Shown piece after piece: positions 47,201-49,151 of a stretch of DNA of 49,256 nucleotides. A program made the position numbers and the translations under genes. The DNA is taken from positions 1 to 49,256 of the forward strand of contig DAIDHX010000316.1 of assembly GCA_027451885.1 (NCBI GenBank), written 5' to 3'. The stretch is from Planctomycetales bacterium (lineage in GTDB: Bacteria > Planctomycetota > Planctomycetia > Isosphaerales > Isosphaeraceae). Positions within the stretch are counted from its first letter, which is position 1, and every line of letters begins with the position of its first letter. Below the pieces are notes generated by a model. That model was given only the letters and a program-made list of their open reading frames with translations. It had not been told where the DNA came from and did not search any database.

Positions 47201-47275
47201 CGGGGCGTAGCTCAGCTTGGCTAGAGCGCACGGTTCGGGTCCGTGAGGTCGCAGGTTCAAATCCTGTCGCCCCGA
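47201..47275 (+). tRNA. tRNA-Pro (anticodon CGG)
   Basis: A complete cloverleaf can be drawn. The acceptor stem CGGGGCG (47201-47207) pairs with CGCCCCG (47268-47274), with discriminator A at 47275. The D-arm is GCTC/GAGC. The anticodon stem CACGG/CCGTG encloses the loop TTCGGGT with anticodon CGG, and the T-arm GCAGG/CCTGT-type stem encloses TTCAAAT. The C1-G72 pair and A73 are the identity features of bacterial proline tRNA. No CCA is encoded. Fragments of its 3' end are repeated downstream. Confidence 0.93.
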
Positions 47276-47289
47276 CTATTTTCAGAAAG

Positions 47290-47319
47290 AAGCCCTTCGA
47301 CGTTCTCGCCGAAGGGCTT
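47290..47319 (+). terminator. Hairpin terminator after tRNA-Pro
   Basis: AAGCCCTTCG (47290-47299) and CGAAGGGCTT (47310-47319) form a perfect 10-bp stem with a 10-base loop, 15 bases after the tRNA. The T-run that follows is weak (TTTGTCATTGTT). Confidence 0.6.
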
Positions 47320-47432
47320 TGTCATTGTTGGGATGCGAGTTATAACTCCCGCAGTGTGTTCAACTGGCGGGACTCGATAGTCCGTTGTTCGAGGTGAATC
47401 GACGCAACTCGTTTCTGCAATTCCGAAAGCGC

Positions 47433-47450
47433 GGTTCAAATCTCGTCGCC
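47433..47450. repeat. Degenerate copy of tRNA-Pro 3' end
   Basis: GGTTCAAATCTCGTCGCC matches the tRNA's GGTTCAAATCCTGTCGCC in 16 of 18 positions. It may be a second att-like scar or tRNA debris. Confidence 0.45.
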
Positions 47451-47622
47451 AGTTGGGTGGCAAGTAAATCGTACTTCAAAATAAAGCAGGGCGATTCGCG
47501 CGGCTCAATGGGGCAATTTGTCTGCGATGAATCAGAATCTGGGACATTGATGAGCGGTTGCGGGACCACTAAGATCCATGAGGTCTTGCAAGATCGTGAC
47601 GAGTTTGGCGACGAGGCGCGCG

Positions 47623-48681
47623 ATGAGAGTTGACCTTGGCCAGATGCACGGCTGGATCGTGGACGAACTTACGCGCGATCGGCCAGTTTCCGAGTCAATG
47701 GCCTCATTGATCGATCAGTGTAGTGCCGCTCATCCGCACCCGGATTGGGCCAAGCTGCGAGCACTGCCGTATGCCGACCTATCCGAGCTGCATGATTGGG
47801 TACAGCGGCCGTTCAGTGAAGAGCCGCCCGAGAAGTTGCTTAAGGGGCTATGGTTCGGGCTGTTCAATCCATGCCCGGACGGGCACACCCCCGTCGCCGA
47901 CATCTACGTCTGCGGATCGAAGCGGTTCGACCCGGACCCGGACGACAACAGTTGGGCTGTTGACCCCGACTGGTGGCCAGCTACCCGATACGCCAACTCG
48001 ACGGTACTGTACGACATCTATCGCATTGCCTACCGCCAGGGGTCGCCCTCGCCTGACCAGAACGAATGCTTGGGCAACGACGCCGAGTATCCGTTGGCGC
48101 TCGGGTATGGCGTGTTCGCTATTCGGGAGTTGCTCGGGCAAATCGAACCGCAGTTGCTGCTCGGCCGGGCCGATTCGTTCGGCGTGGCAGTTGGGTTCGA
48201 CAGCGGCGACTTCGTGGTGCTCGGAAAATTGACGAGCGCTGGTCTGAAGCCAATTGACCCGAATGCCGAGCGCCCGGAGGTTTCGATCGAGCCTGTGCTG
48301 GAGGGACTACGATCGTCCGATGGCAACAAGGTCTTTCACGCGATATTCGAGTTGCGCCGACTCGGAGTACATGCGCGAGCAGCAATTCCGGAGTTGCAAA
48401 GGATTGCACTCTCTGATGAGATGGGCCTGAGGCAAGCGGCAGTGAACATGCTCGGAGCGGTCGCCCCAGACGACCCGGGCGCAAGGGCGACGGTTCTTCA
48501 GGCTTTGGATGACACAAGTCCGTTCGTGAGGCGGGAAGCGCTCCAGGCGCTAATCGCACTCAAAGGGCTTTCGGCGTCTGATCTTACCAGGATCAAAGAC
48601 ATGGAGAACGACGAGGACGAGAATGTGGCACGTTGGTCTGAGATCGCGCTCCGAAATATTCGACTCCGGGGTGGGATCTAA
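47623..48681 (+). CDS. Hypothetical protein with C-terminal HEAT repeats
   Basis: This 352-residue protein is inside the tRNA-bounded segment. The N-terminal 220 residues are not a family I recognise. They are acidic and aromatic-rich (DIYVCGSKRFDPDPDDNSWA, YPLALGYGVFAIRELL, FGVAVGFDSGDFVVLG) and reminiscent of immunity-protein-like domains, though this is only an impression. Residues about 230-340 are HEAT-like helical repeats: VFHAIFELRRLGVHARAAIPEL, RQAAVNMLGAVAPDD, RREALQALIALKG. ATG 47623 is preferred because GAGG lies about six bases upstream; 47578 is an in-frame alternative. Codon use is less GC-rich than in the neighbours, consistent with acquisition. There is no signal peptide. Confidence 0.75.
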   Translation: MRVDLGQMHGWIVDELTRDRPVSESMASLIDQCSAAHPHPDWAKLRALPYADLSELHDWVQRPFSEEPPEKLLKGLWFGLFNPCPDGHTPVADIYVCGSKRFDPDPDDNSWAVDPDWWPATRYANSTVLYDIYRIAYRQGSPSPDQNECLGNDAEYPLALGYGVFAIRELLGQIEPQLLLGRADSFGVAVGFDSGDFVVLGKLTSAGLKPIDPNAERPEVSIEPVLEGLRSSDGNKVFHAIFELRRLGVHARAAIPELQRIALSDEMGLRQAAVNMLGAVAPDDPGARATVLQALDDTSPFVRREALQALIALKGLSASDLTRIKDMENDEDENVARWSEIALRNIRLRGGI

Positions 48682-48812
48682 CTACCCAACATGGTGGCAA
48701 TACCGCGCGCCTTGATTCTTCTTTTAGGATCCAAACTCTGCTTGACTACTGAGCATTAGTGGCAAGCGTGCCTCCCAACCTTGCACACCTACGATAAAAA
48801 GTTCAATAGCCG

Positions 48813-48826
48813 TCCTGTCGCCCCGA
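48813..48826. repeat. Exact 14-bp copy of tRNA-Pro 3' end
   Basis: TCCTGTCGCCCCGA is identical to 47262-47275. It lies 12 bases before a strong terminator hairpin, as expected if that hairpin originally terminated the tRNA. It is a candidate attachment-site duplicate. Confidence 0.6.
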
Positions 48827-48837
48827 TCCTGGAAAAA

Positions 48838-48879
48838 GGGGCTGGCTCTCGCCGATGGCGAATGCCAGCCCCTTTTTTT
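48838..48879 (+). terminator. Strong rho-independent terminator
   Basis: GGGGCTGGC (48838-48846) pairs with GCCAGCCCC (48864-48872). The apex holds an inner hairpin, TCGCC-GAT-GGCGA, and seven Ts follow (48873-48879). Five As precede the stem, so it could work in both directions. Confidence 0.85.
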
Positions 48880-49006
48880 AATCTTCCTGTCTGTTCGTTT
48901 CTGTCGTTGCCAGCGAATCATAGGGAAATAAAGTACATCGTCTCATTTTTCATTCCTGCCTCACGACACGGCAGTCCGAACAGCTCAAGAAGCAAAACTT
49001 GACGGC

Positions 49007-49030
49007 AGTATCATCCGATGATACTATCAT
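49007..49030. promoter_or_regulatory. Overlapping palindromes at HicA-like start
   Basis: AGTATCATC-C-GATGATACT (49007-49025) is a perfect 19-bp palindrome. It overlaps a second perfect palindrome, ATGATA-C-TATCAT (49018-49030), which ends within the ATG at 49029. Three TATCAT half-sites alternate in orientation at 49009, 49018 and 49025. This is a likely autoregulatory operator of a toxin-antitoxin locus. Confidence 0.6.
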
Positions 49031-49151
49031 GAATGGCATGAGGCCGAAGCACCAACGCACGCTCGACGCGATTCTCGAGGACCCAGTCAGGTCGAACATC
49101 GCCTGGCGGGACATCCAGGGCGATTGCGCGATCCTGGGGAATCTGGCATGA
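49029..49151 (+). pseudogene. Truncated HicA-like toxin fragment
   Basis: The 40-residue frame begins MNGMRPKHQRTLDAILEDPV followed by RSNIAWRDI. This matches the N-terminus of the HicA-like toxin family (pattern TL..IF..PV.SNI.W.DIE) that cleaves mRNA in hicAB systems. After WRDI the sequence departs (QGDCAILGNLA, stop), so the double-stranded RNA-binding-like core with its catalytic His is missing. Other frames downstream give no clear continuation, although a frameshift cannot be excluded. No HicB antitoxin is seen before the window ends at 49256. The operator-like palindromes upstream remain intact. Confidence 0.5.

Follow-up and report, generated by a model that had tools for sequence, protein, structure and literature searches.

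The window examined here (the entire contig C316, 49,256 bases, from a genome of 6.18 Mb in 316 contigs) carries, at the 3′ end of a tRNA-Pro gene, a small integrated element that we regard as very probably a cargo-only member of a family of mobile elements in Planctomycetia that employ a large serine recombinase (LSR) and whose attP lies inside the LSR gene. The element is real and is not an artefact; the main uncertainties concern its mobilisation in trans and the effect that the loss of a C-terminal tail has on the LSR, both of which are inferred only.

The integration target is a tRNA-Pro(CGG) gene at 47,201–47,276 on the forward strand (ARAGORN and Rfam RF00005, 62.3 bits), which stands at the left junction (attL) of the element. 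A preliminary description of this locus had reported an exact 14-bp copy of the tRNA 3′ end at 48,813–48,826 (forward strand), and this was borne out: TCCTGTCGCCCCGA is found without mismatch at only two places in the window, 47,262–47,275 and 48,813–48,826, the latter being the attR core. A relaxed match to these 14 bp (up to two mismatches) is not rare by itself, with 1.05 expected by chance in the window. The second copy sits in a 23-bp motif that occurs with no mismatches once in the window and never in 100 shuffles, and that is present at six places in the window’s own genome versus none for a reversed control. The strong terminator that had been noted just after the copy was also recovered as a hairpin at 48,830–48,880 on the forward strand (−38.3 kcal/mol, z −7.3), and is probably the original terminator of tRNA-Pro. 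The lower GC content ascribed to the insert is likewise evident (0.57 vs 0.64 for the window), as are its single HEAT-repeat gene and the absence of an integrase. The one convincing gene, on the forward strand at 47,578–48,681, is 367 codons long as listed, a start at 47,623 instead of 47,578 being more likely, and has C-terminal HEAT repeats (PF13646, HEAT_2, E 3.6e-10); the tyrosine integrase profile PF00589 had no match on contig C316, and its four matches in G000 all lie elsewhere. The contig ends (49,256) 376 bp beyond the terminator, and no overlap was found between the end of the window and contig C250. A short frame at 49,030–49,150, MNGMRPKHQRTLDAILEDPVRSNIAWRDIQ, broken near the contig end, looks similar to the beginning of a HicA-like toxin.

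The 14-bp copy forms the outer edge of a right end (RE) of about 75 bp, which in the window occupies 48,757–48,826 on the reverse strand, where it is matched by R1, a 77-position model of the RE motif, with 64.9 bits and an E-value of 2.6e-17. Six copies of the motif, CGATAAAAAGTTCAATAGCCGTC-CTGTCGCCCCGA, are present in the window’s own genome; four follow tRNA-Ser(GGA) on contig C82, and C250 and the window have one each. The R1 model located REs in 126 of 398 Planctomycetia genomes, representing 80 of 186 genera, and an exact-pattern scan of GTDB genomes returned 26 stretches, nearly all labelled as Planctomycetota or as an unnamed bacterium, the exceptions being one Alphaproteobacteria MAG and one Ca. 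Obscuribacter MAG. The flanks of the REs end as a tRNA-Pro type (GCCCCGA) or a tRNA-Ser type (CTCTCCGC), the RE is common to elements at tRNA-Pro and tRNA-Ser genes across many genera, and in some genomes several copies stand in tandem downstream of a single tRNA. The orientation of these ends was evaluated for 82 REs from 64 loci, for just 25 of which a tRNA fell within the fetched stretch, the other 57 being without any; for 24 REs the nearest interior tRNA was a Pro or Ser in antisense, for one it was a sense Ala, and no tRNA was located on the exterior side (0/82). We also considered tmRNA as a target and found none.

Read away from the tRNA core, the RE encodes the peptide D(R/K)TAIELF(I/V/L)AGVRGWEA.LRR. 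The third positions of its codons are the most variable, and pN/pS is 0.56 over codons 8–20 and 0.32 over codons 1–7, vs 0.71–1.5 in the other frames; judged by these substitution patterns, the RE tails of the family evolve as protein. The corresponding open reading frame in the window, on the reverse strand at 48,724–48,813, comprises the 29 codons of a putative detached recombinase tail, TAIELFIVGVQGWEARLPLMLSSQAEFGS, and a stop codon. The idea that the RE motif was merely a repeated peptide or repeat element was dropped when an LSR gene proved to end in the motif.

That gene, in the sequence L112, is a single unsplit open reading frame of 525 codons that unites an LSR body with the RE tail, and its product is identified as a large serine recombinase by its domain content (Resolvase PF00239, Recombinase PF07508, and Zn-ribbon PF13408). 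Homologues of the LSR were detected in 77 of 398 genomes, many of them 70–85% identical, and the matches stop at about query residue 487–499, the position of the tRNA core, where L112 reads SRGDK-TAIELF. Of 30 loci, 18 have a tRNA-Pro, -Ser, or -Ala gene abutting the LSR 3′ end in antisense orientation. The LSR frame runs without a stop as far as the core in 28 of 29, beyond which it continues on codons of the flanking DNA, mostly those of the tRNA antisense strand, and the integrated frames often terminate in SRGDRI followed by a TGA from the tRNA T-loop. In G331, G189, G142, G098, and G075, the LSR lies next to the tRNA, and the tail is found at the opposite end of the element, approximately 14–73 kb away. 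This placement of body and tail, together with the unsplit gene of L112, implies an attP inside the LSR gene near its 3′ end, and integration would thus remove the tail of about 29 codons; both the position of attP and the severing of the tail are inferences from sequence, for which there are no recombination data.

The sequence L112 (also L252–L255) belongs to JAGVLO010000009.1, a contig of an Alphaproteobacteria MAG, and holds the sole unsplit LSR gene that we saw. This 85-kb contig looks alphaproteobacterial, and either cross-phylum transfer or a chimeric contig is possible; a circular form was rejected given that look and the absence of a terminal overlap. By eye, the LSR gene of L112 lies near AbiEi/AbiEii-like genes. 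Searches for the family LSR found none in plasmids and one match of only 25% in phages, and a search of IMG/VR returned one match of 71%. An AlphaFold model of the LSR (pLDDT 60, pTM 0.32) rendered the tail helical at low confidence and was not used. Some LSR genes (L217, L229) adjoin merely a partial 3′ copy of a tRNA, which suggests that these elements entered at the attR of a pre-existing tRNA island.

The left end (LE) of the window element (47,265–47,342) is a stretch of 78 bp that includes the tRNA 3′ end and is 87% identical to the 3′ end of the LSR gene (blastn against L112, E 2e-22). An HMM of the LSR C-terminus, run against all six frames of the entire window, had its top match at 47,260–47,343 (E 2.6e-5), and translation of the reverse strand at 47,257–47,343 yields a recombinase stub of 28 codons, ITRIPTMTKPFGENVEGLLSENSRGDRI, that is closed by a TGA from the tRNA T-loop. 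On the forward strand, a hairpin borne by the element follows the tRNA at 47,289–47,320 (−21.3 kcal/mol, z −5.0) and overlaps the KPF..EGL codons of the stub. In other genomes with such elements, hairpins of this kind stand after tRNA-Pro and tRNA-Ser and coincide with the LSR codons KPFDVLAEGL, and the element thus seems to carry a replacement terminator inside its coding end; the hairpin at 47,289–47,320 is likely to be the replacement terminator for this tRNA. The displacement of the original terminator, as proposed in the preliminary description, is supported, but that account has to be amended in that tRNA-Pro itself has a second hairpin, one belonging to the left end of the element. We had entertained the possibility that a conserved hairpin at this position refuted displacement, and abandoned it on finding the same hairpin after tRNA-Ser genes and inside LSR genes. 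What had been described as a degenerate third copy of the tRNA 3′ end is also a genuine feature, a conserved T-arm-like motif of the left end at 47,430–47,451 on the forward strand, CGCGGTTCAAATC(C/T)CGTCGCCA, which recurs inside other left ends at 130–175 bp from the tRNA or RE; ten matches were listed, and nine were counted in 1.3 Mb vs about 0.5 expected by a rough estimate. The motif was seen inside the left ends of L066, L068, L069, L141, L152, and L156 as well. Several right ends and tRNAs (L139, L129, L130, L118, L140, L073) are followed by a separate repeat, similar to TTGCAGTGGCATTGCATTCACGTTG, which may represent the left end of an additional element family.

The two ends, their origin in an LSR gene, their geometry, and the split gene in relatives can be read from the sequences themselves; the recombination event, its reliance on a trans-acting LSR, and the function of the tail are inferred. 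We propose that elements of the family integrate at the 3′ end of tRNA-Pro, tRNA-Ser, or tRNA-Ala genes, and that autonomous members encode an LSR with the attachment site near the 3′ end of its gene. Recombination with the tRNA would split this gene, leaving its body at the tRNA with a new end taken from the tRNA antisense strand and transferring the last 29 or so codons to the end of the element distal to the tRNA. The window element would have retained only the two end pieces (at the LE the 28-codon stub and hairpin, at the RE the tail) around one HEAT gene, and would most likely have been integrated via an LSR supplied by another element. In doing so, it would have restored the 3′ end of the tRNA in full, supplied a new hairpin, and pushed the old terminator 1.5 kb away. 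The window element has what marks the family, namely an RE composed of an antisense tRNA core and a TAIELF tail and an LSR-derived LE at the tRNA, and lacks what marks an autonomous member, its insert holding the HEAT gene only and no LSR. The combination put forward in the preliminary description, an attR with a displaced terminator bounding a minimal cargo element moved in trans, fits this class-wide pattern, with the movement in trans unproven; the type of enzyme, the attachment site within the recombinase gene, and the tandem arrays had gone unseen. No LSR of this family was found in the window’s own genome, where the sole PF07508 match was weak (26 bits) and, by tblastn, unrelated to the family LSR; mobilisation in trans is therefore only inferred, and current mobility is unsupported. 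No empty site backs the insertion at this particular locus. In G035, the sequence beyond an RE is 81–84% identical over 45–52 bp to what immediately follows tRNA-Pro in G027 and G017, but these latter sites carry a tyrosine integrase, and the comparison thus supports insertion only partly.

An alternative that we consider rather unlikely is decay in place, whereby a full LSR element entered tRNA-Pro and its LSR body was deleted later, such that the element never moved in a cargo-only state. The 28-codon LSR stub left at the expected position is compatible with such a history, as is an LSR fragment in G002, of the same genus, that stops at an apparent transposase insertion by its tRNA-Pro. Several genomes, however, contain tandem series of cargo-only elements of about 1–3 kb that all have both an RE and a left end, some of them sharing the T-arm-like motif, and independent deletions would need to have had similar stopping points.

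It is very improbable that the window element was moved in trans by a tyrosine integrase of tRNA-Pro islands. The preliminary description had advised a search for an integrase targeting tRNA-Pro elsewhere, and tyrosine integrase genes do adjoin tRNA-Pro(CGG) in relatives (L026, L027, L028, L034) and adjoin the RE in L153; the ends of the element, however, derive from a large serine recombinase instead, both being pieces of its gene. Second, partial tRNA-Pro copies in several relatives, 47–55 bp of the 3′ part, suit classic islands, whereas the RE has about 12–14 bp. The LSR origin of the ends largely refutes a tyrosine integrase as the mover, unless both enzymes use the site. As general movers, tyrosine integrases were rejected as well, being found beside the RE only in L071 and L153, where they are poorly related to each other and on the exterior side. 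The integrase genes of L026, L027, L028, and L034 lie directly downstream of tRNA-Pro(CGG) in the same orientation as the tRNA. In L153, the tyrosine integrase follows the RE, and two element types are thus stacked at one tRNA. A chance match, a decayed second tRNA gene (which the preliminary description had named as grounds for its own refutation), or an ordinary dispersed repeat unrelated to integration, in whose favour stands only the roughly one relaxed 14-bp match expected in the window, has already been ruled out by the distribution and geometry of the REs across the class, given that no tRNA is predicted at 48,813, the 77-position model matches there at E 2.6e-17, the geometry of the RE to tRNAs is fixed, and the tails are protein-coding.

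The reading of the window element as a cargo-only member of the LSR family invites comparison with several known systems. Archaeal ‘suicidal’ integrases of the SSV1 type, which a 2021 review calls exclusive to archaea, are tyrosine recombinases with the att site in the integrase gene, which is broken into two inactive pseudogene parts when the element enters a tRNA gene (PMC8371274). The LSR family is like them in that, as inferred from the sequences of autonomous relatives, attP lies in a recombinase gene that is split upon integration into a tRNA, the att site is translated in the protein, and a complete enzyme would be needed in trans if the split enzyme is inactive. It is unlike them in that its enzyme is a large serine recombinase, its hosts are bacterial (Planctomycetota genomes), and the LSR loses only about 29 C-terminal residues with the integrated gene open in 28 of 29, from neither of which do we infer activity. 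The family would thus represent a bacterial counterpart of a design that the review restricts to archaea. No bacterial or serine version of a suicidal integrase was found in the open papers searched, and no published account of the LSR/tRNA element family was found in the open-access literature searched, most subscription papers and bioRxiv preprints being outside its scope; the family is apparently undescribed so far. We suggest, tentatively and as a possibility only, that integration could act as a recombinase switch, in which the unsplit LSR with its conserved tail performs integration, whereas the form without the tail, closed by residues from the tRNA antisense strand, has its direction changed or is silent, and cargo-only elements with no more than the two gene pieces as ends borrow the enzyme in trans; the LSR would then be what the suicidal integrases are in archaea, a bacterial serine equivalent that gives rise to tandem arrays of defence cargo at tRNA genes.

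Classic tRNA islands (with a tyrosine integrase) and tycheposons target the tRNA 3′ end, restore the tRNA, and leave a partial copy at the far end. The window element shares these three properties, and differs in having no tyrosine integrase, a short core of 12–14 bp, and conserved coding ends. CIMEs are cargo units that are flanked by attL and attR, are without a recombinase of their own, and are often in tandem with others. In the same manner, the window element consists of cargo between attL and attR without a recombinase, and tandem units are present in relatives; unlike CIMEs, the LSR family targets tRNA genes in Planctomycetia and has ends that come from a serine recombinase gene. Autonomous relatives with the same ends exist, and the window element may or may not derive from, and be mobilised with, such a relative in the way that a CIME depends on an ICE or IME. 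CIMEs and the tandem accretion of ICEs and IMEs have been documented in Streptococcus (PMC5704250, PMC7563491). In the integration-dependent immunity of mycobacteriophage BPs, the attachment site is inside the repressor gene, and integration alters the C-terminus of the product (PMC4557955). The LSR family likewise has an attachment site inside a gene whose product would be altered at its C-terminus by integration, although the gene encodes the recombinase and not a repressor.

Homologues of the HEAT cargo gene are patchily distributed, being present in 20 of 398 genomes and reaching 72% identity in another family. No RE was found beside the homologues in other genomes within the fetched flanks, and evidence is thus lacking that the cargo travels as the unit seen in the window. 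Related arrays carry IetA/IetS (own genome, C82), type III-D CRISPR effector genes (G001), Fic/Doc (G004), and PIN (G003). The autonomous element of G331, 13.7 kb in length, encodes the LSR, DUF5906, a small resolvase, and HNH nucleases, and no relaxase was seen among its ten scanned proteins. With the enzyme and ends now named for a mobile-element family found in roughly one in three of the Planctomycetia genomes sampled, the searchable ends render tRNA-linked cargo arrays (toxin-antitoxin, CRISPR type III, IetAS, and unknown genes) mappable, and new defence genes could be sought by their position relative to the element ends. The attachment site in the LSR gene additionally offers a natural test of the role that the C-terminal end of large serine recombinases, enzymes in wide use, has in direction control. 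In the tRNA-Ser array of C82 (L045, approximately positions 2400–2990), a gene is followed by what, by eye only, resembles an integron attC site (GCCTAAC...GTTAGC).
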